Assembly: GCF_014205135.1 (NCBI RefSeq)
Contig: NZ_JACHMY010000001.1
Span: 8,742,001-8,806,000 of the forward strand
Length of the DNA: 64,000 nt
Reading direction: 5' to 3'
Origin: Kribbella italica
Lineage (GTDB): Bacteria > Actinomycetota > Actinomycetes > Propionibacteriales > Kribbellaceae
The notes beneath the pieces are model-generated. The model was not told the origin of the DNA. It worked only from the letters and a program-made list of their open reading frames with translations, and made no database searches. Shown here piece after piece: positions 30,526-45,902 of the stretch. Position numbers and translations under genes: made by a program. Position 1 is the first letter of the stretch, and every line of letters starts with the position of its first letter.

Positions 30526-30570
30526 CACAAGGCCCAGGAACAGACGCGGTGTCTGCCTGGGCCTTGATGC
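30526..30570 (+). repeat. Hairpin repeat, copy 1 (of a 45-nt element repeated at 32632-32677)
   Basis: ggcccagg (30531-30538) pairs with cctgggcc (30556-30563), enclosing caggaacagacgcggtgtctg-like sequence. The same element with only a few changes occurs 2.1 kb away beside a tRNA fragment. Here it follows the hydrolase stop and can serve as its terminator. Confidence 0.8.
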
Positions 30571-32631: not shown

Positions 32632-32677
32632 CACAAAGGCCCAGGAACAGATGCGATGTCTGCCTGGGCCTCGATGC
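32632..32677 (-). terminator. Hairpin repeat, copy 2: terminator of the tRNA-Lys fragment
   Basis: ggcccagg (32638-32645) and cctgggcc (32663-32670) pair, with an inner cagat/gtctg stem. It lies directly after the tRNA-like 3' end on the minus strand and is nearly identical to 30526-30570. Confidence 0.7.
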
Positions 32678-32717
32678 TGGTGCGCCGCCAGGGACTCGAA
32701 CCCCGAACCCGCTGATT
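32678..32717 (-). other. 3' end of a tRNA-Lys(CTT) gene: probable integration (att) site
   Basis: Forty nt on the minus strand begin at aatcagcgggttcg just after the anticodon loop and end in ggcggcgcacca. They hold the complete T arm (ttcgagt loop), the 3' acceptor strand and the encoded CCA, as in actinobacterial tRNA-Lys(CTT). The 5' half (acceptor, D arm, anticodon) is missing from the sequence beyond 32717. This is the scar expected when an integrative element uses the 3' end of a tRNA gene. Original downstream DNA (the terminator) lies to the left, so the element lies to the right. Confidence 0.8.
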
Positions 32718-33245: not shown

Positions 33246-35100
33246 ATGCATCTCAGCAGGCTGCGCGTCCAGGGCCTTCGGGCCACTGCTCTGGGGGAGC
33301 TGGAGGTCAGCCTTCCAGGACGCTTCAGCGTTCTGATCGGCGCGAACGGCGCCGGAAAGACCACAGTCAGCGAAGCGCTTTATCTCGCCACCGGAAGACC
33401 TTCCCCCGTCTGCCTGGCCCGTCGGCGTCGACCCTCGGTCCGCCCGAGCGGGCCATCGAAGTCGACTACTCTTACGCGGATGACCCGAAGGGCGAGCGTC
33501 CGCTTGGTATCAGTCTGCAAGCGCAAAGTGGACGTAACGCGCCAGGAACGGTCGCTGCGACGTGGTCTCGGACTCTTCGGCGTGACCTGGGACGGGTGCG
33601 CACCGAGCCGCTCGTCACGAGTCAGGTCGAGGACGCGATCTTCTCGTACACCTTCCCGCGTGGCGTAATCCGCTGGACGAGTTGGCTCGCCGAGAAGCCC
33701 GGGTGCTGGTCGAGCTCCTCAGAGCACAGCAGCAGAACAGGGGAATGGGACGAGACCTGACCTCTCTGCGCACCAAAGCCTCCCGCTTGCTGGAGGAGTT
33801 GGCGAGCGACGGTCTGTTAACTGCCCTCGAGGACCGCGTTGGTGACCATCTGCGATCCCTGTCCGCCGGTGTCAGCCGGAACTGGCCGTACATCCGCGGA
33901 CAGGTGGCCGACGATCGCTATCTCGCGCGGGTACTCGAGCTGATGCTGGCAGCCATCGAGGGCCGTGAACACGCGCTTCCCCTCGAGGCAGTCGGGCTCG
34001 GGTACGTCAACCTCCTGCACATCGCCGTGACGTTGGCTGCGATTCCAGATGCAACACGGGTCGAGGAGGCGACGGCTGAGATGGCGGATGTTGGGCCCGT
34101 CGCCGCCTCCTCGGCTCAACAGGATGGGGCCCAGACTCAGCAGTCGCCGACTGAGGAGCCGCCGGAGTTCGAGGACGCGGAGGAACGTCTTCGCCAGGCA
34201 CGTGTCGAGAGTGAGAGTCGCGAAGACTCCTTCTTCCCCGACGGGCCGTTCCACGTCACGTTGGTCATCGAAGAACCCGAGGCGCACCTACATCCTCAAT
34301 TGCAACACTCGTTGATCCGCTACTTGCGTCGTGAGGTCGCTCAGCGTCCCGAACTGCAGGTGATTGTCTCCACGCACGCCAGCGATGTCATCGCATCTTG
34401 CGATCCCAAAGAGATTGTCGTCGTTCGACGTGACAGGCAGGGCAGAAATGTCTCGCGTGCTGTTGCGTCCCTGCCGATGACCGGCAAGGAGGAGGTACTG
34501 CGAAAGACTCGGTTGCACCTTGACGCCAGCCGATCGGCCGCGCTGTTCGCCGAGCGGCTGTTGCTGGTCGAGGGAGTGACCGAAGCGGCCGTCGTCAGGG
34601 AGTTTGGATGGATCTGGGCCGGCCAGGACCGTGACAAGCAGGCGTTCGTCGACGCGCTGAGCATCGTGCCGATGGGGACCAAGGTCGGTTCCTGGGCAGT
34701 TCGTCTGCTCGCCACCAAAGATCACGAACTCTGCAGCCGCATTGCAGTGCTGCGTGACAGCGACTTGCCCTTCGACCAGGTACCCACGCTGCCGGCTTGG
34801 GCAGCCGAGCACGATCCGGAGGTGCTTCTGGTCGCACAGAGCCACCCCACGCTGGAGCCAGAGTTGACCGAGGACAACGAGAATCTTGTGGTGAAAGCCC
34901 TGACCGCTCTTGGGCTCGACGTCCCGGATCCGGTGACGCCGGAGTCTGTGCACCCGATCTTTCGAAGTGCCCGAAAGCCGAAAAACGGCGTGCACACGCC
35001 CGCTGGGCCAGGTGCGCCGCGCAAAGCTGAGTTCGCGCTCGCCTTGGCCGAAGGGTTTGCGGGAGGCGCATCAAACTGGCGCGGCCATCCGCGTACCTGA
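33246..35100 (+). pseudogene. OLD-family ATPase-TOPRIM nuclease (GajA-like), broken by two single-base frameshifts
   Basis: Joined across frames the product is about 618 aa, the size of class 2 OLD nucleases such as GajA. Frame one (from ATG 33246, AGGAGG upstream) gives Walker A LIGANGAGKTT at residues 30-40. Near 33387-33395 the reading continues one frame back (KTFPRLPGPSAS); near 33646-33652 it shifts again (LPAWRNPLDELARREARVLV). The last frame holds Walker B VTLVIEEPEAHLHP, the H-loop VIVSTHAS, and a TOPRIM domain (LLLVEGVTEAAV and VLRDSDLP). Both shifts fit loss of one C from a C run. It is either decayed or carries sequencing indels. It lies 53 nt before the UvrD-like gene, as in Gabija loci. 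Confidence 0.8.
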
Positions 35101-35153
35101 GCCGATCGCAAGCGCGCTGGACTTCCTGTCGGCAGCGACACCGCGTCCGAATC

Positions 35154-36676
35154 ATGACGGCTGAGGGCGGCGAGCCGTTCAAGGCCGCTGCCGACGCACT
35201 CACCGAGGAACAGCACAGGGCGCTTGGTGCGCGGAGTCCGCGACTGTACATCGAAGCAGGTCCGGGGACCGGAAAGACCACGGTGTCGGCCCAGCGGTTC
35301 GGCGTGCACCGGTTCGATCCGGAGGCCCGGAGCGACGTGCGGGCAGTAGTAGCGGTCAGCTTCACCCGGGCAGCGACCCTGACGCTTGCCCGGCGGGTCC
35401 AGCGGTTCTGGGGGCGGGAGGCGTTGAGTTGGCCGCATCAGATCGTGACCCTCGACGCCATCATGTCGGACCTTCTCCGTGATCTGTTGCGGGCGGGGGT
35501 CCTGCGCTGGCCGAACGGGCACGTGGATCTGCGGGTCGAGGACAGTTGGTCGGCGTTCGGTGCGACGTTGTGGAACAGGACGGCGTACGAGTTGACGGTC
35601 CAGAACGGCGAAGTCGTTGTGGTCAGCGGGTTCACGGACTCCGGTCGCGTCACCGTGCCGACGACTATCAGCATTCCACTGCTCAACGACGGCATCTGCA
35701 CGCACGACGACATTCGATCGGTTCTGGAGCAGGCGATCGACGATCCTGGGATCGCCGACTTCGTCAGAGCGCGGTTGGCGGCGCGGATGCGCGCCCTGAT
35801 CGTCGACGAGGTCTTCGACGCCAATGACCTGGACATCGCCATCATCGAGTTCGCGGTCGAGGCCGGAGTGGCAGTCACTCTAGTCGGGGATCCTGGCAGG
35901 CGTTGTATGTGTTCCGCGGTGCCCGGCCTGAGGTCGTTCCCTTGTTGCTCGACCGGCAGGAGTTCCGGCGGCTCTCGTTGACCCAGTCGTTTCGCTGGCG
36001 TGACCCGGGGCAGAAAAAGTTGGCGGATGCCCTACGCGCCGGGCAGCCCGCGACCCTGCCGGTGCTGAACCACGCCGCCGGACCCGTGGGGGTCGACGTG
36101 GTCCTGTCCTTGTACTGGAAGCCGCTGTGGGAGCTCGGTGCGGAGGTGCTCCCGCTGGCGTTCCAGAGTTTCAAGGGCGGGCACGAAGAGGCCGCCGCGA
36201 CGCTGGTGCTGAACCATGTCGCCAGGAACATCTTCAGTCTGGACGCGACTTATCTGAACGATGCACTGACCGCTTTGGCGATCAGCGACCGTGATGTCCT
36301 GCGACAGATCGAACCCGACTTGCAGGCGATCACGGATTTACTTCACGAAGGCGGAAAGAGCGGAATTCGCGCCGGCTACATACGAGTGTGTGAACTGATC
36401 GAAGCGATATCACCTCGACGCCTGCGAAAGCCGCACCACAGCCACACAGGGCGCCTGGCTCAGATCCGAGAGCGGCTGTCCTTTCCCGGTCGTCCGGTGC
36501 CTGGTCTCACAACTCATCAGGCCAAAGGCGCAGAGTGGGACGCGGTTGGAATCAAGCTCTCGGACGACGATCGCGATCGGCTGATCCATGGCCTGAGCGT
36601 GGACAGCGACACCGATCGGAAGCTCTACGTCGCCTGCACCCGAGCCCGCGTGCGAACCGTGGAGGTGTTGCCCTGA
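35154..36676 (+). pseudogene. UvrD/Rep-like superfamily 1 helicase (GajB-like), one frameshift
   Basis: Joined across frames it is about 507 aa, close to GajB. Motifs in order: Q motif LTEEQHRAL, Walker A EAGPGTGKTTVS, motif Ia VSFTRAATLTLARR, motif II IVDEVFDAND, motif III VGDP, then motif IV LTQSFRWRDPG, motif V THQAKGAEWDAV and motif VI YVACTRAR. The break is inside motif III: the sequence reads gatcctggcag where gat-cct-tgg-cag (DPWQ) is expected, so one T is missing near 35893. The remaining motifs are intact, so the damage looks recent or is a sequence error. Partner of the OLD gene upstream. Confidence 0.8.
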
Positions 36677-36987
36677 CGGACCCGAGATCCGCCGAGGTCG
36701 GGAGGTGCTCAGGGCCTTGGGCGCGTATTTCTGAGTCGCGCATCAGCGTTCGGCAACAGGGAAGGTCTGGCCCTGCTCGGTTCGGACGCTGCAGCGGGCG
36801 TATGGCGCCGACGTGGAACCATGGACCTCCCGACCAGCGGTCGGGTGGTATCGGTCCAGCAGACGACGTACACCATCCCAGTGCGGTCATCGGCTCGTTT
36901 GGTGTCTGCCTCGACGGTCGCGGCTGATCGCGTCTGACCGCCACGCGTTCAGACCACAATCCAGTTTCAGTTCGGTTACATTGAGTC
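36677..36987 (+). other. Intergenic gap inside the defence block
   Basis: These 311 bp contain no gene I can support. The AT-richer stretch before 36988 (ccagtttcagttcggttaca) may hold a promoter for the four-gene run that follows. Confidence 0.4.
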
Positions 36988-38643
36988 ATGCCTGCAGGCG
37001 AGGAACCGGTCAGCGCTCAGTGGGTGCGACCTCCGGAGTTGGTTGGTAGCGACGGTTTGATTCGCATCGGGGCAAGTCATGCCCGAGGTGAGTCTGTGGG
37101 CTGTCCCGCCGGGGACAGCGTGAAGATCCGGCCGAAGCTGCGACTGCGGCACTGGGTTGAGTCGTCGAGGACGCCGCTGACGACATTCACGCTCGACCCG
37201 GTGATGAAGGCTTTGGACCGGATCGAGTTCGACGGTGTCAGTGACGCGGTCGCGCTCGCCGAGATCGCCTCCGACCGAGTCCACCCGGGCCTTGTGACCT
37301 TCGCTCGGCACGCGACCAGCTCGTATCGGGCGTCCTGCGACGCTCGGCAACGTGGACTCGTTCCTGCCCGCGACCTCTGGGTGGTCCAGCGGCAGGCGAA
37401 GGCTGTCTGGGAGTTGTATGCCTGGGGACGTCGGTATTGGTCTATTGACGGGGACCGCCGCGAGTTCCGTTTCCTCCGCACAGGTACGTCGGCCGCAAGG
37501 GCCGAGTCGCAGGTGGCGATCGCGGCGTTCGCGACCGCATTCGGCGACCCGTCCCCGTGGCCCAGACCATGGTCGAGTTCGTTCGAGATCACCTCGGCGC
37601 CCGCACCGACCAAGGTCAGAGTGACTCAGATTGACCTGGCGACCGGCAGGCTCGACGTGCTCTTCGACGGTACGCCGGCGGAGGCGTCGGAGCTGTTCGA
37701 ACTACGCGGTCGTAGCGAGGTGACGCGCCTGTCCCGCGGTGTAGAGACCCATGCGGGAAGTTGGTGCAGTGGCTGCAAGCGGCAGAGCTTCTGCGACGCC
37801 TTGCCGGCGGTTCCAGGGCTGCTCGGGATGACAGCGCGTGGAAATCCCGAACGGAGCGTTTCGGCCAGCAACCTGCGATACCACCGAGCATGTCCCGCCC
37901 AAAGTCACCTTCGAGACCTTGGGTTGCCCAAGACCTGGGAGTACGACCCGAGTTCGACGCTTGGGCAGGCGGTGCACGCGTGGCTCGACGAGCGGCATCG
38001 GCGCGGTCTTCCGTGTGATGCGGCCGATACACCGCCGGAGGCCGACTGGTCAGCCGGCGGCTGGTCTGTCGAAGGCGACCAAGCAGCGTCTGGTCGGCGC
38101 ATGATCGAACACCACCGCGCGCTCTGTGCGTTTCAGTTCTCCGAGGTGGCCGAGCAAGCGCGAGTGGAGCCGACGCTTGTCGTCCACGATCCGCAGGCGC
38201 GCGCCGTGGTTGTGGCCAAGCCCGATCTGCTGTACCGCGACGGCGAAGCGTGGGTGTGGCGCGAGGTGAAGACCACTACGCGTCCGCAGCAGTTCGCGAC
38301 CGATCCTATCGAGATGCCACAGCTCGCGATGGCGGTGGTCATCTTGTCCGGCGGTGCGCTCGGCGGTGAGTTCGAGGGGGCGCGGGTGGAGCTCGAGATC
38401 CTGCACCCGGACGGTTCAGACATTCAACTGATCGACGCGGCAGATCCGGATCAGATCACTCGGGCGCGAGATGCTCTGCGGTCCTATGTCGAGCCCTGGT
38501 ACCACGACGAGGTGTTCCCAGCCCGCCCGGGCAGAAACTGTCGGTGGTGCCCTGTATCCAGGTGGTGTCCGAGTTTCCCGGGCGACAGCGCGTTGCAGAT
38601 CGACAGGACAGCACATGACGACGACACAGGAACCGCCAGCTGA
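36988..38643 (+). CDS. PD-(D/E)XK nuclease family protein with Cas4/AddB-type iron-sulfur cysteines
   Basis: A 551-aa protein. The C-terminal nuclease domain (about 285-540) has the catalytic signature VVAKPDLLYRDG and WREVKTT (D and ExK). One Cys lies before it (RYHRACPAQSH, about residue 299) and a C-terminal group CRWCPVSRWC; this 1+3 arrangement is the 4Fe-4S cluster of Cas4, AddB and related RecB-like nucleases. A further CxxC..C set (GSWCSGCKRQSFC, near 255) sits in the N-terminal half, whose remaining function I do not recognise. The start is provisional because no strong ribosome site precedes it. It overlaps the next gene by 29 nt, so it belongs to the pPIWI-RE operon. Likely a DNA nuclease. 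Confidence 0.8.
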   Translation: MPAGEEPVSAQWVRPPELVGSDGLIRIGASHARGESVGCPAGDSVKIRPKLRLRHWVESSRTPLTTFTLDPVMKALDRIEFDGVSDAVALAEIASDRVHPGLVTFARHATSSYRASCDARQRGLVPARDLWVVQRQAKAVWELYAWGRRYWSIDGDRREFRFLRTGTSAARAESQVAIAAFATAFGDPSPWPRPWSSSFEITSAPAPTKVRVTQIDLATGRLDVLFDGTPAEASELFELRGRSEVTRLSRGVETHAGSWCSGCKRQSFCDALPAVPGLLGMTARGNPERSVSASNLRYHRACPAQSHLRDLGLPKTWEYDPSSTLGQAVHAWLDERHRRGLPCDAADTPPEADWSAGGWSVEGDQAASGRRMIEHHRALCAFQFSEVAEQARVEPTLVVHDPQARAVVVAKPDLLYRDGEAWVWREVKTTTRPQQFATDPIEMPQLAMAVVILSGGALGGEFEGARVELEILHPDGSDIQLIDAADPDQITRARDALRSYVEPWYHDEVFPARPGRNCRWCPVSRWCPSFPGDSALQIDRTAHDDDTGTAS

Positions 38644-39763
38644 GTTCTTCACGGGGGAGCGACTGCTGCGGTTGGTCGCCTCGGCCATTACCAGGTTGGC
38701 TTCAGCCCGGCAGCCGGCGACGCCGGTCTACGAACCGACCGTGCTGACGGCGTACAACCACCTCGTTCTGCGCTGCCTCAAGGATGGTGTCGCGCCCCCG
38801 AGCAGTGTGCCGGACATGACGGCCTGGGCAGCCGAACTACCGCTGGAGCGTTGGCCTCTCGAACTGCCTGATGGCTTCGCACCGCAGGACGAGTTCCTGG
38901 TCGACGCGGCGACCGGTAGTCTCACCCAGCAGTGCCTTGAATGGGCTGTCTCGGCTCCCGATCCGGCGGCTGAGCTGTTCGAGAATGTCCTGATGCACGA
39001 AGCGATCAGCGCCTGCCGGATCAGTCAGTCTCCGGAGTCGTACACGGCGTTCCGGGCGTTGTTGGTCGCCCGACCTGTGCTGACGGGTGCCGATCTCATC
39101 GAACTCAATCGGGAGATCAACCTGCAGCCAGTTCTCGAGCTGATCCAGAGAGTCTACGAGCCGGTCACGGCGACCTACCTGCGCGACGGCCAGGCTGCGA
39201 CCTGCGCGCGCTGTGGCTGCTTGCTGGTTTCGATCTCCAGGGACGGGTATCGATGCGAGCTCGATCGCTGTCATCGGGCCGGCGCGGGCACGGTTGGCAA
39301 GGTGCTGAGCGCTGCGTCCGACGGCGGACTGCGTCAACTCAGCCGGCCGTTGCGAATGTTCATCACCGGTCCAGGGTTGGCTGAAGGCGACTTGGACACC
39401 GAACTGCAGAAGCGGGGTCTGAAGGCCGAGATGTGGCCGAACTTCGACGCCTACGATCTGCGAATCGCCCTGCCGTCCGGGAAGGTCTGGGCAGTTGACG
39501 TCAAGGACCGCTCGAACCCGGTGCTGCTGGGTCGTGGGGCGAAACAACTGCGGCCCGATCCGCCGTACCACCGGGCATTTCTGGTCGTGCCGCAGTACCG
39601 ATTCGACGAACAGGAAAGCTACGGCCGCGTCTTCAAACGGAACCTGGCACCCGACCTGGCCACGAGACTCGAGTTGCTGACGGACACCGAGTTCCTTCTC
39701 CGGGTCGACCGCGAACTGTCGTCGATCCCGGCAGGCTCCGGCGCTGGAGCGAGCGATGCGTAG
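38615..39763 (+). CDS. pPIWI-RE-associated restriction-endonuclease-like protein with zinc ribbon
   Basis: A 382-aa protein. A helical N-terminal half precedes a zinc-ribbon-like CARCGCLLVSISRDGYRCE...C segment (about 200-226). A C-terminal restriction-endonuclease-like domain follows, with FDAYDLRIALPSGKVWAVDV running into KD (about 280-305), giving a D...DxK active site. Gene order, size and the downstream helicase and PIWI genes match the REase component of pPIWI-RE operons. ATG 38615 lies inside the end of the preceding gene and 8 nt overlap the next gene. Confidence 0.8.
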   Translation: MTTTQEPPAEFFTGERLLRLVASAITRLASARQPATPVYEPTVLTAYNHLVLRCLKDGVAPPSSVPDMTAWAAELPLERWPLELPDGFAPQDEFLVDAATGSLTQQCLEWAVSAPDPAAELFENVLMHEAISACRISQSPESYTAFRALLVARPVLTGADLIELNREINLQPVLELIQRVYEPVTATYLRDGQAATCARCGCLLVSISRDGYRCELDRCHRAGAGTVGKVLSAASDGGLRQLSRPLRMFITGPGLAEGDLDTELQKRGLKAEMWPNFDAYDLRIALPSGKVWAVDVKDRSNPVLLGRGAKQLRPDPPYHRAFLVVPQYRFDEQESYGRVFKRNLAPDLATRLELLTDTEFLLRVDRELSSIPAGSGAGASDA

Positions 39764-42700
39764 CCGGAGCGATTGGCACCAGGAGATCTTGTCGCAACTA
39801 TCGGACGGTTGGCCGGACGACGTTGCCGTTCGACCGGGCGATCTGCTCGACGTCGAACTCGGACTTCGACTACTGGAGAGAGTTACTCCGACGTGGACGG
39901 CGATCGATGCCTGGACGCTGCTCGGTGGATATCCGTACAGCGACGTCCTCGCGGAAACCGGTGCCGAGCAGCGACTGATGATCCGCCGGGCGCGGCACTA
40001 TCTGTGGGACCTGCGCCGGCGCTACGAGTGGCGGCGGTTGCTCTCGATGTACCTCGAGGTGCCTCGGCACCTGCGCGCCTATGACTTCGGCGAAGTGGAC
40101 GAGACGCCTGTGCGGCGAGACCCCAGTCGTGCCGCGAGGCGCTTCGATGTGTACGACCGCCTGCTGACGTCGCCGCCGACCTTTGTGCGGAGTGCGTTGC
40201 CGCGAGCGGAAGCGGGGCAGTTCCAGTTCGTTGCCCGGGAGCGCCACTATGCGGTGACGATCCCGGCTGAGCTCGTTCCGGATGCACCGAACCGAGGACA
40301 TGATCTCACCGCGATGCCTGCCGCACTGGGCGCTGCGATCGAGGTCAGCTGGAAGGAACTCGAAGCAGCTGCGCGCTCCATGGACGCGTTGGAACAGACC
40401 GACGGAGAACGTCCGAACAGGTGGACCGAACGCCTGCAGCGGGTCGAACTGCTGATGCGCGACGACGCCGCGGGTCGCTTCAGCCGGTCCGATGCGTTTC
40501 GGGTGGACGGTCTGCTGAATCTCGTCGGGATGGTCGGCGCGGGAAAGTCCACGGTGCGCGACATCCTGGCGTTCTGGGCGGCTACGCGAAGCGGCCGGCA
40601 CATCACGATCGTCGTCGGTGATGTCGCCGAAACGCTGGCGATCGTGCATCAGTTCGAGCGTCTAGGGCTTTCGGCGGCTCCGATCCTCGGGCAGTCGACC
40701 CGGGAGCGGCACATCGAGCGGTTGCACCGACGGGTGGCCGGAACCGGTGCGGCCTCCATGCTCCAGCACCGGCATCCCGGTTTCACGTTCCTGAGCAGCG
40801 CCTGTCCTCTCGACGCTCTCCGAGGGTTCGAGGCGCCGCATCCGCTCGCGATCGGTGAGGCTCCTTGTGGTTCGCTGATCCCGGTGGAGCCGGCGGAGGA
40901 CTTCGCGCACTCGCTGGCGAGTTCTGAAAGTCCCGAAGGTTCGCGCCGTAGGCCAGGCAGAGCACCACGTCGTCACAGTTGCCCACTGTGGTCGTCCTGC
41001 CCGCGTCATCACGGTGCTCGGTCTCTGGTTGATGCCCAGATCTGGGTCACCACGTCGGCCGGGCTGGTTCACAGCGCAGTACCCCGGCAGTTGCAGGACG
41101 AGAACCTTCGCTACCTCGAGCTTGTTTGCCGGCGAAGCGACCTGGTGATAGTCGACGAGGCGGATCGGGTGCAGATCCAGCTGGACGCCGCGTTCGCGCC
41201 CTCGCTCACGCTGATCGGACGATCGCCGAACTCCTGGCTCGACCAGGTCGCCGGCCACGCGGTGAGCGAACTGGCCAGGCGCGGGAGGATTCAGCTGTCA
41301 GCTCGCGAGGTCGACGACTGGACCGGCGCGGTGAACACGGTCACCGCGGCAGCCAATCGTCTGTACGCATTGCTGATCAACGACAGTGGACTTCGCGGTT
41401 GGATCACCGAGGAGTACTTCAGCGCGCACACTCTGCACCAGTGGTTGATCAACGCTTGGTTTCCGGAGGACCATTCACGCGACGATCATGATCAGGTCGA
41501 CCCCGAGCGGCTGGAGGCGATGCGCCGGGTCGGCGAGATCCTCGACCAGTTCCGGAACGAGCCGCTCGAGATGCGGTCTGCCGACTCCGGCGACGAGCTC
41601 GCTCCAGAGGTGAACCAGCTCGTGGCGCTTGCGCTCGAGTTGCTGCACGCGCCCCGCGGTTCGTCCATCCGCGACCGCCTCCGGAGCGTTCTTCTCGACC
41701 TCGTCGAGTTGAACGAGGACATCGAGGCACACACCACCAGGTTCGAGTTCACCCTGATCCTCGCCGCGCTGCACCACCGACTGAACTTCATGACCACGCT
41801 GTGGCCACGAGTCGAAGCCGCGCTCAATCTCGAGTCCGCCTCGAACGTCCTGTCACGGCGACCGCCACGGGACTACGAACCGATGATCCCGGAGTCGCCG
41901 ATGGGCAACGTGCTCGGCTTCCAGTTCCGGCCGGGGGAACGGGAGCGGGACGGCGATCAGAGTGGCGAGCTGAGCTTCTTTCGATGCGGTGGGGTCGGGC
42001 GTGAATTGTTGATGGAGCTGCACAACCTTCCGGCGGTCGACGATCGACCAGGGCCCAATGTGCTCTTCATGTCCGCCACCAGCTGGGCGGGCACCTCGAG
42101 TCGTTACCACCTGCACGCGCCTGTTGGTGCCGTGCTACGCCCGCATCAACGGGAGGTCGAGGCCGTTCTGGGGACCGAATTCCGCAAGGAGTTCCTGCAT
42201 TGGCCGGACAGCCACGAACCGCTTCGCCTGTCCGGGGCGCCTCCGGAGCAGCGAGGAAAGGTGCTCACCGCGATGCTGCGTCAGCTCGCGGAGCCGGATC
42301 GCAGTCTCACCGGTGCCACTTCGATGCTTGAGGACGAGCTGGCGGCGATCACAGATCCTGACCGCCGCCGCGTTCTGCTTCTTGTCGGCAGCTACCAGGA
42401 GGCCGAGCAAGCCACTACCTACCTGCGCAGTCTTCCGGAGTGGAAGGACCGTGTCGTCCAACTGATCTCAGACGACGCGGACTTGGACACGTTGTGGACG
42501 CTGCGCCGGGGCGACGTCGCGGCGTTCGGCCGGACCGGCGGTGAGATCTTGGTCGCGCCGTTGCTGGCTGTCGAGCGCGGCCACAACATCGTGCTGCCCG
42601 ACGGTCGAGCGGCGATCGGTACGGCGTACTTCCTGGCCCGGCCACATCCGCGCCCGGACGACATCTCCCTCGCGGTCAACGCCATCAACGACTGGGCGGT

Positions 42701-43139
42701 GCGTCAGATTCGTGACGGCACCGGAGAGTTCCGGCGCGCCGTTCGGTCGGCAGGATCCGCGGATGCCGCGGCGAGGTCCTTCCGGGCCAAGGCAGCGAAG
42801 CTGTGGAACAGGTATCTGACCCGACAGTTGATTTGGAGTCACCTGCCGGAGGAGGAGAAGAACGCCTTCACTTGGGACCAGCTCGTGGTGATCTGGCAGG
42901 TGATCGGCCGTCTGGTCCGTGGGGGAGTGCCGGCGCGGGTTGTCTTTGTCGACGCCGCGTTCTCTCCTCGCGAGGCCGGCTTTCGATCGCTGGACACTCC
43001 TGACACGAGTCTTCTCGTCAGCATGCGTGAGTTGCTCGCGCCGTACTTCGACGAGCAGTCGTCCAGGCCCGCGCTCGACAAGTCCTTGGTCGAAGCGTTG
43101 TACGAACCCTTGTATCGAGCACTCGTAGAGATGAACTGA
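39756..43139 (+). CDS. DinG-like superfamily 2 helicase of a pPIWI-RE system
   Basis: A 1,127-aa protein. Walker A GMVGAGKST lies near residue 262 and the DEAD-like box LVIVDEADRVQI near 465. Between them are four cysteines at about residues 349, 370, 408 and 415 (ACPLD, PCGSL, SCPLWSSCP), as in the iron-sulfur domain of XPD/DinG helicases. C-terminal helicase motifs include LLLVGSYQEAEQAT and VIWQVIGRLVRGG, the latter being motif VI with its Gln and Arg. The N-terminal 240 residues are outside the helicase core and match the extra module of pPIWI-RE helicases. It overlaps the REase gene and is 6 nt from the PIWI gene. Likely unwinds or translocates on the nucleic acid targeted by the PIWI protein. 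Confidence 0.85.
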   Translation: MRSRSDWHQEILSQLSDGWPDDVAVRPGDLLDVELGLRLLERVTPTWTAIDAWTLLGGYPYSDVLAETGAEQRLMIRRARHYLWDLRRRYEWRRLLSMYLEVPRHLRAYDFGEVDETPVRRDPSRAARRFDVYDRLLTSPPTFVRSALPRAEAGQFQFVARERHYAVTIPAELVPDAPNRGHDLTAMPAALGAAIEVSWKELEAAARSMDALEQTDGERPNRWTERLQRVELLMRDDAAGRFSRSDAFRVDGLLNLVGMVGAGKSTVRDILAFWAATRSGRHITIVVGDVAETLAIVHQFERLGLSAAPILGQSTRERHIERLHRRVAGTGAASMLQHRHPGFTFLSSACPLDALRGFEAPHPLAIGEAPCGSLIPVEPAEDFAHSLASSESPEGSRRRPGRAPRRHSCPLWSSCPRHHGARSLVDAQIWVTTSAGLVHSAVPRQLQDENLRYLELVCRRSDLVIVDEADRVQIQLDAAFAPSLTLIGRSPNSWLDQVAGHAVSELARRGRIQLSAREVDDWTGAVNTVTAAANRLYALLINDSGLRGWITEEYFSAHTLHQWLINAWFPEDHSRDDHDQVDPERLEAMRRVGEILDQFRNEPLEMRSADSGDELAPEVNQLVALALELLHAPRGSSIRDRLRSVLLDLVELNEDIEAHTTRFEFTLILAALHHRLNFMTTLWPRVEAALNLESASNVLSRRPPRDYEPMIPESPMGNVLGFQFRPGERERDGDQSGELSFFRCGGVGRELLMELHNLPAVDDRPGPNVLFMSATSWAGTSSRYHLHAPVGAVLRPHQREVEAVLGTEFRKEFLHWPDSHEPLRLSGAPPEQRGKVLTAMLRQLAEPDRSLTGATSMLEDELAAITDPDRRRVLLLVGSYQEAEQATTYLRSLPEWKDRVVQLISDDADLDTLWTLRRGDVAAFGRTGGEILVAPLLAVERGHNIVLPDGRAAIGTAYFLARPHPRPDDISLAVNAINDWAVRQIRDGTGEFRRAVRSAGSADAAARSFRAKAAKLWNRYLTRQLIWSHLPEEEKNAFTWDQLVVIWQVIGRLVRGGVPARVVFVDAAFSPREAGFRSLDTPDTSLLVSMRELLAPYFDEQSSRPALDKSLVEALYEPLYRALVEMN

Positions 43140-43145
43140 GGAAGA

Positions 43146-45902
43146 ATGGCTTACCAGACTGTCCACACCGCGGCATTCGTTCCCAGGAGTCCTGACGAGA
43201 GCGTCGAAGCCGAGTACGCCACGCTCGCTTTTCCTGCTGCCTGGCGCGAGCCGATCCTGGATCTCTACAGGTACGCCAAGTCGGCTGCCACGCAGGAGAG
43301 ACTGCGGCGTGTCCCGATCCGGCGGCTAAACGCGGTTCTGCGGGCAGTGGCTCCTGATCTGCTGACGGTCGACGACAGCGCTTCGTTCAGCGCGGCGGTC
43401 CCCTGGCTGTATGCCGGTTCGCCGTTGCCCGCCAGTGTCTTCGCGGGCTTCCTCAATGCCTGGCTGTGGGACATGTCGCCCGGGCCAGAGGCGTTTCCGG
43501 TGTTCAAGCAGACCATCGAAAGCCTGAGGTCCGCGGATCTCCGCTGGTCGGCCAAGACAGTCGACCTTCTGGAACACTCACTGTCCGCGGGTGGCACGAA
43601 CACCCCCGCCGATGCCAGCTACCATCTCCTCCCCGACGTCATCGCAGACCGCATCGCGAAGCTCGCTCCTTATGAACACCTCGGGGAGCGGGTGGAGTTT
43701 CGACGCGTCGCTGGCAGTGCCCGGGCTTCCGGTGCCGAACTGATGTCCTGGCCGCCCCTCGAGGAGCATCGCAAGGACAAAACCGGCGGCAGGCGCACAT
43801 GGCGCTACTCGGCCGTCATCAGGATCTCGCTGAGGACGGTCCCTTTCTCCCAGGTTCCTCGCGTCCATGTTGCGTTCGGCATCCGTCGCTGGGTCAGCCG
43901 TACGGCATGGTTACCGCGCGGTTCGTCCGCATCGGTTTACCTGCTGCCGGACAGCCCGTTGCGTTCGGGCCTGACCGAGTCCAACCGCTTCGCGGTGGGC
44001 GCCGTCGAGTGGAACCGTGGGCTCGGTCGCGTCGCGTGGAGGCACGGCGGACCCGAGGGAATGTTGAAGCACCTGTCGGTGATCGAGAACCTTCCGCCAG
44101 CCGAGCTACTGGTCAAGGACGCTGATGCGTGGCTTGTCGGCAAGGACGGCCTGGTCGCAGCGATCGTTCACCACACCCGTATGGGGGCACACGCGATCGG
44201 CGCGGGCCTCATGCCGAGCGAGCGGCGGCGCCTTGCGGAATGGGTCGCTCCCGCCTTGGAGCCTGAGTTCGTCATGGCGCCGGAGCTGCGACGAAGCAAG
44301 TACGTCTCCGAGTTGCCGCTTCGGCAGCTCGAGCCGATCAAGCCGGTCTCGGCGAAGCTGGCCGACGAGCAGCAGGCTGAGATCAATTCCATCAATGACC
44401 AGCGGACGATCAACAACGCGCGCACAGTCAGGGCCTCGGTGTCCGAGGCAGTCGACGGCCGCCAACTGTCGGTGCTGGTGCTCCACCAAGGCGGCGCGTT
44501 GGCAGATCTACTGACCGGCGCCATCGAGGCGAGTCTCGACCTGGCGGAACACCGGGTGGCCTCCGAGCCGACGCTGTCTCGATGGCAGGCGCCCGACCTG
44601 ACGCTGGAGTTGCACTTCGCTGAACTCGGATCGCTCGGTGCGCCGCTTGGTGCCGATCCGCAACCGCGCACGCGTGCTGAGCACAGCGAAGCGTTCAGCG
44701 CGCGGCGCCGGGAGGTCACGGCCTGGATCAGTGGAGTCGGCGAGCAACGAGGGATCAACCCATCCCTCGCCCTGCTCGAGTTGGAGGGCGCTGACAAGTT
44801 CGGGCCACTCACCGATCCTAAGTTCGCGTTGCGAGCCGGGTGTGCTGAGGCCGGCCTGGTGACCCAGTTCGTCGAATTGAAATCTCCGCCGACCAAGGAT
44901 GCGGAGTTTCGAATCGCAGCTGCCTGGTCTGACGGCCTCCGGCAGACCGGATCCCGTCTGATTCCGGAGCACAGTCTTGGCGACGCGATCCCGGACAATC
45001 TCAACCAGGTGGCGGTCTGGTTGGTGAGGCGTCGCCACGACGGTCCGACCTACACCCCGCAGTTCACACCGATCGCCGTTCTGCTCCGGCCCCAGGAACG
45101 TCAGGTCCTCGGCCGAACCGCCGACATGGACGAGTGGGTGCCCTACTCTCGCCTCCTGGCTTCACTGGTTGGCACGATGCGTCCGCAGGACCTCAGGTCC
45201 AGGGATCAGCAAACAGAAGCGGTCGCAGTCTTTATGCGTAAGCTCTTGTACGGTTTGAAAGGGCGACCGACGCTCGTTCTCACCCGCGCCCAGAACCTTC
45301 GGCCGCGGTGGCCCTGGCTTCTCAATGGAGGCCTGGTTCCGGACCACCTGCAGCTGGGAAATGGTCCGCTTCAGCGCCTTGCACTCCACGGACGGAACCT
45401 GCGGGTGGTTCGGGTCGCGGACCAGCAGCGTGACGAAACTCCGCAGTGGTGGGCGCCGAAGGAGAACGGCGGAGGCGGAATCTCGAAGGGGTTGTGGGCC
45501 CCGGCTGAAGAGAGCGGCCACAGCGGACGCGTCTTCTACAGCACTACCGATAAGGCGAGCACACACAGCGGCGTCGGCGTGGATCTGAGCAAGCTGACAC
45601 ACCATCTGGACAGCAAAGGGAAGCCGAGGATCAACCCCGGTACCGCCGGCTGGACCCCGCAGTTGCTGGAGCTGACGATGGCAGGGCTGCAGCCCGGCGA
45701 CGACCCCGCCACTTGGGCGATGTTCGTCCACCAGCAGCGAACGGCCGAGGACTACCGCGATCAACTCGGACTCCCGCTGGCGCTGCACCTAGCCCGGCTG
45801 ACGGAGCAGTACGCGTTGCCGTACGACGCGGAGGAAACCGAGGCTGTCGAGGCCAGCATCGACGAACTCGATAGCGACCTCAACAGTCAGAGCGACGAAT
45901 AG
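43146..45902 (+). CDS. pPIWI-RE protein (prokaryotic PIWI of the RE class)
   Basis: A 918-aa protein. The N-terminal module (formerly DUF3962), a MID-like middle and a C-terminal RNase H-like PIWI domain (formerly DUF3893) follow one another. Signatures include LLELEGADKFGPLTDPKFAL and AEAGLVTQF in the MID/PIWI transition, and VLTRAQNLRPRWPWLLNGGL and RVFYSTTDKAS in the RNase H part. Catalytic residues were not assigned with certainty. Known bioinformatics places this family with a DinG-type helicase and an REase as a predicted guide-dependent or R-loop-directed anti-invader system. GAGGAAG overlaps the previous stop. It is the last gene of the operon. Confidence 0.87.
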   Translation: MAYQTVHTAAFVPRSPDESVEAEYATLAFPAAWREPILDLYRYAKSAATQERLRRVPIRRLNAVLRAVAPDLLTVDDSASFSAAVPWLYAGSPLPASVFAGFLNAWLWDMSPGPEAFPVFKQTIESLRSADLRWSAKTVDLLEHSLSAGGTNTPADASYHLLPDVIADRIAKLAPYEHLGERVEFRRVAGSARASGAELMSWPPLEEHRKDKTGGRRTWRYSAVIRISLRTVPFSQVPRVHVAFGIRRWVSRTAWLPRGSSASVYLLPDSPLRSGLTESNRFAVGAVEWNRGLGRVAWRHGGPEGMLKHLSVIENLPPAELLVKDADAWLVGKDGLVAAIVHHTRMGAHAIGAGLMPSERRRLAEWVAPALEPEFVMAPELRRSKYVSELPLRQLEPIKPVSAKLADEQQAEINSINDQRTINNARTVRASVSEAVDGRQLSVLVLHQGGALADLLTGAIEASLDLAEHRVASEPTLSRWQAPDLTLELHFAELGSLGAPLGADPQPRTRAEHSEAFSARRREVTAWISGVGEQRGINPSLALLELEGADKFGPLTDPKFALRAGCAEAGLVTQFVELKSPPTKDAEFRIAAAWSDGLRQTGSRLIPEHSLGDAIPDNLNQVAVWLVRRRHDGPTYTPQFTPIAVLLRPQERQVLGRTADMDEWVPYSRLLASLVGTMRPQDLRSRDQQTEAVAVFMRKLLYGLKGRPTLVLTRAQNLRPRWPWLLNGGLVPDHLQLGNGPLQRLALHGRNLRVVRVADQQRDETPQWWAPKENGGGGISKGLWAPAEESGHSGRVFYSTTDKASTHSGVGVDLSKLTHHLDSKGKPRINPGTAGWTPQLLELTMAGLQPGDDPATWAMFVHQQRTAEDYRDQLGLPLALHLARLTEQYALPYDAEETEAVEASIDELDSDLNSQSDE

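Follow-up and report, generated by a model that had tools for sequence, protein, structure and literature searches.

The pPIWI-RE gene triad of Kribbella italica is preceded by a nuclease gene that overlaps it. This raises the question of whether the nuclease is a component of the system or a neighbour, and of how the work would be shared among four gene products. The window, i.e. the whole stretch of DNA analysed, comprises 64,000 nt of the forward strand of NZ_JACHMY010000001.1 (8,742,001-8,806,000).

Gene content of the locus

According to the ORF list, four intact genes lie on the plus strand at 36988-45902, overlapping or almost abutting. This layout had been described in a first-pass annotation and is borne out by the ORFs and by Pfam and PADLOC matches. 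The features are:

36677-36987 (+), presumed promoter region, the 311-nt gap ahead of the operon (ORF list and sequence)
36988-38643 (+), gene 1, apparently tandem Cas4/AdnA-like PD-(D/E)XK nuclease, PprPDDEXK, 551 aa (ORF, Pfam, PADLOC, AlphaFold2)
36988-37839 (+), N-terminal half of the nuclease, with a cysteine quartet and PD-(D/E)XK-like element order, ExK not kept (alignment, model)
37840-38640 (+), C-terminal half of the nuclease, active-type PD-(D/E)XK (conservation; nearest solved folds AdnA and ACE1)
38615-39763 (+), gene 2, pPIWI-RE REase protein, 382 aa (ORF, Pfam, PADLOC, conservation)
39756-43139 (+), gene 3, pPIWI-RE DinG-like helicase, 1127 aa (ORF, Pfam, PADLOC, conservation)
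43146-45902 (+), gene 4, pPIWI-RE protein, 918 aa (Pfam, PADLOC, alignment, model)

An ORF at 36535-36927 that overlaps the 311-nt gap was judged spurious. The REase frame is open from 38471; with the internal ATG at 38615 as start, the protein has 382 aa (38615-39763) and its gene overlaps the nuclease gene by 29 nt, exactly the value first reported. The REase and DinG genes overlap by 8 nt, and 6 nt separate DinG from PIWI. All expected pPIWI-RE domain families and PDDEXK_1 were matched in Pfam: PDDEXK_1 by the nuclease (7.7e-25), pPIWI_RE_Y (1.3e-37) and pPIWI_RE_REase (4.7e-35) by the REase protein, pPIWI_RE_Z (8.4e-44) by the helicase, and pPIWI_RE_X (8.8e-98), MID_pPIWI_RE (5.4e-23) and RNaseH_pPIWI_RE (4.5e-67) by the 918-aa protein. 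In PADLOC-DB 2.0.0, the nuclease matches PprPDDEXK (PDLC02423, 4.4e-94) and the other three products match PprRE (3.6e-80), PprDinG (8.5e-255) and PprPIWI (5e-187). The REase, DinG-like helicase and pPIWI-RE identities proposed earlier are thus upheld by both collections. Chance ORFs are ruled out by the profile matches and by conservation, and a chance arrangement is ruled out because relatives show the genes in the same order and just as closely packed. An Rfam search of 30-50 kb of the window gave no match.

Distribution and co-inheritance of the nuclease gene

Relatives were collected by scanning one genome per species (84,980 species) with eight DinG queries of the pPIWI-RE helicase family. 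The best 80 of the 305 relatives obtained were kept; as the closest relatives, they are biased towards the window's own clade. In 79 of these 80 loci, the nuclease gene lies upstream of and adjoins the REase gene. Its spacing to the REase start is at most 60 nt in 78 of 80 complete four-gene operons, a 4-nt overlap being commonest. In the one exception (L097), the nuclease is absent by tblastn and the REase match begins only at position 198 of the 340-position profile, so that this operon has lost its 5' end. L097 was rejected as a true three-gene member, its REase being truncated and abutting an acyl-CoA-synthetase-like gene (read by eye). One locus (L031) represents the same contig stretch as L018; it is counted among the 80 adjacency loci and the 81 PIWI alignment rows and was excluded from tree, distance and neighbour counts. 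L052 lacks a PIWI gene at a contig end.

Between pairs of loci, nuclease distances are correlated with the distances of REase, DinG and PIWI (Pearson 0.87, 0.91 and 0.91; 0 of 500 permutations as high); since related hosts share ancestry, this correlation alone is no proof of interaction. On a DinG tree (FastTree, 143 rows, long branches flagged), the four-gene form requires 2 changes, compared to a mean of 46.5 after shuffling. Within this sequence-based tree, the two changes are consistent with one gain plus L097. Two loci with genes in pieces (L107, L138) were excluded from the tree; L138 resembles a decayed four-gene member and was counted as lacking the nuclease.

Less biased samples were taken at the genus and phylum levels. 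In a genus sample of 392 genomes, by inference Streptomyces, PF13032 is found in 110 and the nuclease profile in 61, in some weakly. For counting, PIWI matches covering fewer than 200 of 288 positions (27/139) and nuclease matches below 60 bits (7/63) were dropped. A nuclease gene is located 6.1-7.2 kb upstream on the same strand in 51 of the 112 near-complete PIWI genes and is missing there in 61, one of which (G422:C747) has a nuclease on another contig, perhaps owing to an assembly break. Conversely, 51 of 56 strong nuclease matches occupy this position. The other five are on a different contig (G422), beside a PIWI gene in pieces (G760), in PIWI-free surroundings (G735, G765) or a fragment (G728). 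Of the 61 loci without nuclease, 56 were fetched, two (G182, G023) are L020 and L022, and three (G422:C747, G422:C792, G717:C134) were left out; four nuclease-bearing or broken loci were fetched besides. The 56 loci together with L012-L016, L019, L020, L022, L023 and L097 form the 66 rows without nuclease used below. Removal of L097 leaves 65 control loci, in 56 of which both REase and DinG are seen by profile.

PIWI-RE occurs in 6 of 396 genomes drawn from the phylum. Among the loci read, the nuclease is present in the window, L017 and L018, triads in L019, L020 and L022 lack it, and the rest are PIWI fragments only. Within Kribbella (38 genomes), PIWI-RE is found in 8 and the nuclease in 2; in both of the latter, the nuclease gene shares the strand of PIWI and precedes it by about 6.4 kb or less. 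Plasmid PIWI matches comprise five triads, from Streptomyces, Azospirillum, Nostoc (two) and Calothrix, and AP018293 (27% covered); no nuclease was found near the five triads. A search of a phage collection gave no match to the nuclease.

Adjacency, genus and phylum samples, plasmids, tree and distances together indicate that the nuclease belongs invariably to one clade and is lacking elsewhere among the loci sampled. Judged from this sequence distribution, it is a co-inherited component of one actinobacterial clade, not of the whole pPIWI-RE family. The proposal that the fourth gene is a component thus applies to that clade and fails for the more distant loci sampled. The observation named beforehand as refuting, absence of the nuclease gene beside most other pPIWI-RE operons, is made outside the clade and not inside it.

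The nuclease also has a PIWI-free home, observed at four loci on two plasmids (Rhodococcus, Streptomyces) and in two genomes (G735, G765, inferred Streptomyces). In all four, the nuclease is followed by a protein of about 265-285 aa and then by a convergent IrrE-like protein. The middle protein has a sub-threshold PIN match in one member (L011). These nucleases keep the eight cysteines, H337/C343/H376/C380 and D413/E426/K428 described below; Q445 is kept in one of four. The PIWI-free occurrence marks the nuclease as an independent module; recruitment may have run towards the PIWI clade or in the opposite direction. The trio (L010, L011, L104, L105), with its IrrE/ImmA-like third gene, is possibly a separate defence or stress module.

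Other genes accompany triads without the nuclease. A conserved gene of about 420 aa is present in 23 such loci (L108-L126 and relatives); in L116, the member searched for domains, a helix-turn-helix lies at the N-terminus. Of its ORFs, 22 lie upstream on the operon strand with a median of 4 nt between open frames; the gene is perhaps this nuclease-free branch's own extra component. A Streptomyces plasmid triad (L012:9606-11359) is closely followed by a 227-aa protein and an Mrr-type restriction endonuclease, possibly an alternative way to gain a second nuclease.

Architecture of the nuclease

The first-pass annotation had noted a cluster of one plus three cysteines. The cluster is present, but the description was incomplete: there are two quartets, C39/C260/C263/C269 in the N-terminal half and C302/C518/C521/C527 in the C-terminal half, all eight cysteines being invariant in 82 of 82 aligned relatives. 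From this arrangement, an iron-sulfur cluster is predicted. H337, C343, H376 and C380 are likewise invariant and may hold another metal. In the C-terminal half, D413, E426, K428 and Q445 are each found in 80 of 80 four-gene rows, which together with the one-plus-three cysteines gives the D...ExK plus Q pattern of Cas4/AdnA/AddB-type nucleases.

An AlphaFold2 model of the nuclease was built from 82 rows (pLDDT 91.1). Its best structural match is AdnA (Z 15.6, nuclease residues 282-530), and it also matches ACE1 (Z 13.8) and AddB (Z 12.9). In a sequence search against solved structures, nuclease and helicase matches were chance-like. In the model, the N-terminal half has strands at 130-136, 140-144, 148-152 and 157-164, a helix at 173-185, strands at 209-216 and 222-228, and helices at 230-250 and 258-262. 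Their C-terminal counterparts are found at 397-401, 406-410, 414-418, 421-429, 444-454, 466-473, 476-483, 487-506 and 516-520. These nine elements follow a common order in both halves, as does the placement of the cysteines. Where the C-terminal half has ExK, its N-terminal counterpart mostly shows E/D159-x-R/W161. It matches no Pfam family, and profile comparison of the two halves is weak (probability 36%). Judged from alignment and model, the nuclease looks like two fused Cas4/AdnA-like units of which only the second has catalytic residues; the first would then be a fused pseudo-nuclease.

PIWI protein, REase and helicase

The window's PIWI protein carries the X, MID and RNase H (PIWI) domains that define a pPIWI-RE protein. 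Its model (pLDDT 89.0) matches whole Argonautes, at best with Z 14.6 over residues 1-894; a search of solved structures by sequence gave no match to it. R756 (79/81 four-gene rows) and E842 (74/81), both present in the window, probably represent the R/E pair that defines the family.

Slicer positions were set by predicted secondary structure and spacing. At positions 619-630, which cover strand 1 (620-629), there is no aspartate in any of the 81 four-gene rows. At position 714, where strand 4 ends, 64/81 of these rows have H and 4/81 have D; the window has R, and 31 of the 66 rows without nuclease have D. The DED(X) tetrad of slicing Argonautes is therefore not recognisable in the four-gene clade. 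The spacing of 85 between D525 and D610 in PsPIWI-RE, as given in the accessible part of PMC10991935, equals that between 629 and 714, an agreement in spacing that supports this assignment. E628 (19/81) and D632 in the loop right after strand 1 (56/81) leave some doubt, and the active site may be shifted. On the basis of alignment and model, the PIWI protein of this clade is taken as a binder and a predicted non-cutter. A replacement of PIWI slicing by the extra nuclease was rejected: the strand-1 aspartate is equally missing where there is no nuclease (0/66 rows), so that gain of the nuclease does not explain the loss of slicing.

The REase protein consists of the Y domain, a zinc ribbon (C197/C200/C214/C219, kept in 80/80 four-gene rows) and the REase core D295-x-K297 (D295 in 79/80, K297 in 78/80). 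The helicase comprises the Z domain, Walker K264, D467-E468-x-D470 and the cysteines C350/C371/C409/C415; K264, D467, E468 and the four cysteines are found in 80/80 four-gene rows. The window thus has the features of the three-gene system: ahead of DinG, a REase protein that combines Y domain and zinc ribbon, and a DinG with cysteine cluster and Z domain.

Genomic surroundings and methyltransferase neighbours

The GC content is 0.64-0.66 at about 32-48 kb of the window, 0.67-0.72 before and 0.66-0.69 after. Just upstream of the operon (33247-36676) lies a broken Gabija-like pair: near 33.25 kb, the beginning of a GajA-like gene, recognised by eye together with its Walker motif; at 33682-35100, the GajA-like remainder in another frame, which matches AAA_15 and, weakly, an OLD-like TOPRIM; and a split UvrD/GajB-like gene (35154-35981 and 35903-36676). 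At 32680-32717 on the minus strand, the 3'-terminal 38 nt of tRNA-Lys(CTT) recur without mismatch, in the same orientation as the intact gene (G000:C1:55588-55661); this remnant resembles a scar of integration at the border of the island. As expected, lower GC, the broken Gabija-like pair and the tRNA remnant fit a mobile defence island. The Gabija-like genes were rejected as part of the system, since the window's pieces matched no other fetched locus (phmmer, E <= 1e-10). A 42-nt direct repeat (93% identical) is also located nearby at 30529-30570 and 32636-32677; its core is self-complementary and terminator-like (read by eye). In another four-gene locus, L101, a GajB/mad8-like helicase lies upstream of the operon (L101:1439-3610) and an Orf5/HEC-06-like gene downstream (L101:16498-19029); these neighbours are a defence-island setting.

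Of the 82 loci that make up the four-gene clade when L097 is included, 40 encode an N6-adenine DNA methyltransferase within 2.6 kb upstream of the nuclease, compared to 3 of 65 control loci without nuclease. When loci whose upstream sequence falls short of 2.6 kb are set aside, the counts are 40/76 and 3/61. Fisher's test of this contrast gives about 6e-10, with ancestry ignored. The usual order is methyltransferase (+), divergent Ser/Thr kinase (-), nuclease (+); in a smaller set, the methyltransferase is directly divergent from the nuclease, without the kinase. A representative methyltransferase matches N6_Mtase, its C-terminus weakly resembling type I specificity subunits, and a representative kinase matches the PD-T4-6 and mad6 profiles. 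Methyltransferase, its C-terminus specificity-like, and divergent PD-T4-6/mad6-like kinase are seen together beside the four-gene operons of L068, L080, L090, L101 and others. On an 81-row tree, methyltransferase adjacency changes 11 times (at least 8 on well-supported branches) versus 27 after shuffling, the kinase twice. The window contains no N6-adenine-type methyltransferase, so the four genes need none as a neighbour; a search of the K. italica genome with the N6_Mtase profile gave one weak match, 0.9 Mb into the record.

Triads have been likened to modification-targeting Mcr systems because a methylase is missing (Burroughs 2013, PMC3702460, in the accessible text). For the four-gene clade, this absence often does not hold. 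The clade might be an Argonaute-based restriction-modification system, in which the methyltransferase, often with the Ser/Thr kinase, would mark self, while a guided PIWI protein that does not cut, DinG, REase and the tandem iron-sulfur nuclease would destroy unmarked DNA; forms like that of the window would rely on guides alone or on a distant methyltransferase. We regard this extension as unlikely.

Proposed mechanism and alternatives

We lean slightly towards a single guided DNA-interference system, with a non-cutting PIWI protein as sensor and the helicase and two nucleases as effectors; that it is a clade-specific variant of the pPIWI-RE three-gene system is part of this reading and is held with the same slight preference. 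It rests on which genes are present and in what order, on the conservation of catalytic residues and metal ligands, on co-inheritance within one clade, and on predicted folds. From these we infer the guide type, target, order of events, complex formation and role in defence. The PIWI protein would bind a short guide, likeliest RNA by analogy with PsPIWI-RE, and recognise invading DNA or an R-loop without cutting it. It would recruit or license the DinG-like 5'-3' helicase, which opens the DNA. The REase would cut, and the Cas4/AdnA-like nuclease would degrade the opened DNA, acting with the helicase as AdnA/AddB nucleases do with theirs. Precedents are provided by PsPIWI-RE, an RNA-guided DNA nuclease (PMC10991935, accessible part), and by Synechococcus, in which a plasmid is limited individually by Argonaute, by a Cas4-like nuclease and by UvrD (PMC10653904, accessible part). 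A machine of two nucleases, a helicase and a PIWI protein had been proposed at the outset. All these parts are present, but as the PIWI protein is predicted not to cut, there would be two cutting sites, not three.

The main alternative assigns the nuclease to guide production: it would shorten DNA of the invader, or DNA ends, to guides for PIWI much as Cas4 trims CRISPR prespacers, and the REase would make the killing cut. The nearest solved relatives of the nuclease include the Argonaute-associated ACE1 and Cas4 of Cas4-Cas1-Cas2 complexes, its gene is the first of the operon, and a PIWI protein without a recognisable slicer would be unlikely to make its own guides. Against this, PsPIWI-RE cuts DNA with RNA rather than DNA guides, DNA guides directing RNA cutting (PMC10991935, accessible part), and a DNA nuclease would not produce RNA guides. 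Loci without the nuclease also exist, and guides would be needed there too. We consider a guide-producing nuclease rather doubtful.

Quite improbable is a housekeeping or replication/repair complex, with R-loop removal by the DinG-like helicase and end processing, in place of defence. DinG and AdnA-type enzymes have roles in repair. Deletion of PsPIWI-RE increases ciprofloxacin sensitivity and affects cell division, a phenotype in keeping with such a complex, and the accessible part of the article reports no phage test (PMC10991935). Patchy occurrence speaks against housekeeping: PIWI-RE is found in 110 of 392 genomes of the genus inferred as Streptomyces and in 8 of 38 in Kribbella, 2 of 38 with the nuclease. 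PIWI-RE is also found on plasmids, and operons adjoin other defence genes. That the PD-(D/E)XK gene is an independent neighbour sharing a defence island is highly implausible: the family does occur PIWI-free beside PIN-like and IrrE-like genes, but 79/80 adjacency (best 80 of 305), the stop/start overlap, restriction to a single clade, the joint loss of nuclease and REase N-terminus in L097 and the position of the strong nuclease matches, 51 of 56 of which precede a near-complete, same-strand PIWI gene by 6.1-7.2 kb, stand against it.

With a PIWI protein without recognisable slicer and two nucleases that retain catalytic residues, the division of labour in this clade becomes accessible to single-residue mutants. 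Sequence comparison brought pPIWI-RE systems to light in 2013; in the extra nuclease, one branch of this poorly understood family has a fixed additional part. Its PIWI-free relatives offer a route to the nuclease's own activity. The recurrent methyltransferase neighbour suggests a self/non-self signal, which the accessible text of Burroughs 2013 does not mention.

Comparison with known systems

The published pPIWI-RE core consists of three genes, the REase gene always being first (Burroughs, Iyer and Aravind 2013, PMC3702460, accessible text). The window agrees with it in the REase protein (Y, zinc ribbon), DinG-like helicase (Z) and pPIWI-RE protein (X, MID, RNase H), encoded in this order and tightly spaced, and the earlier statement that this core is known from comparative genomics matches that source. 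It differs in a fourth, first-placed nuclease gene; because this gene rather than the REase gene comes first, the locus was filed as a variant and not as the three-gene form itself. The extra nuclease is not mentioned in the accessible text of that article. The first-pass view that the fourth gene lies outside the known core is correct for the published triad, but PADLOC-DB 2.0.0 has PprPDDEXK, so the gene is not unknown; all four products match PADLOC profiles (PprPDDEXK, PprRE, PprDinG, PprPIWI), which carry no description. A paper search for the profile names returned only the string 'pprre', all off topic by title. In open-licence PubMed Central, no description of the four-gene form or its nuclease, no experiment on the four-gene clade and no paper on ACE1 was found; the PIWI mentions in the accessible part of PMC7641849 are 'Piwi-related' and off topic for PIWI-RE.

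The C-terminal half of the nuclease resembles ACE1, Argonaute-associated Cas4 family protein 1 (PDB 9iab, 9iac; Z 13.3-13.8). ACE1 is named for its association with an Argonaute. Its chains have 266-269 residues, about one unit, whereas the window nuclease seemingly consists of two fused units and is encoded together with a PIWI-RE protein, DinG and REase. It likewise resembles AdnA/AddB nuclease domains (AdnA 787-1039, Z 15.6, 23% identity), but has no in-chain helicase, is accompanied by a separate DinG-like helicase and has an extra cysteine-cluster half. PsPIWI-RE of Pseudomonas stutzeri (PMC10991935, accessible part) is similar in that a PIWI-RE gene stands beside DinG and REase genes. 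It is reported to be active (D525, D610), while the four-gene clade lacks both recognisable aspartates at the positions assigned by predicted secondary structure and spacing. Compared with these systems, an apparently tandem nuclease with eight invariant cysteines, whose second unit alone keeps the catalytic residues, is new, as are a clade-wide PIWI protein without recognisable slicer, the methyltransferase adjacency and the second, PIWI-free home of the nuclease.
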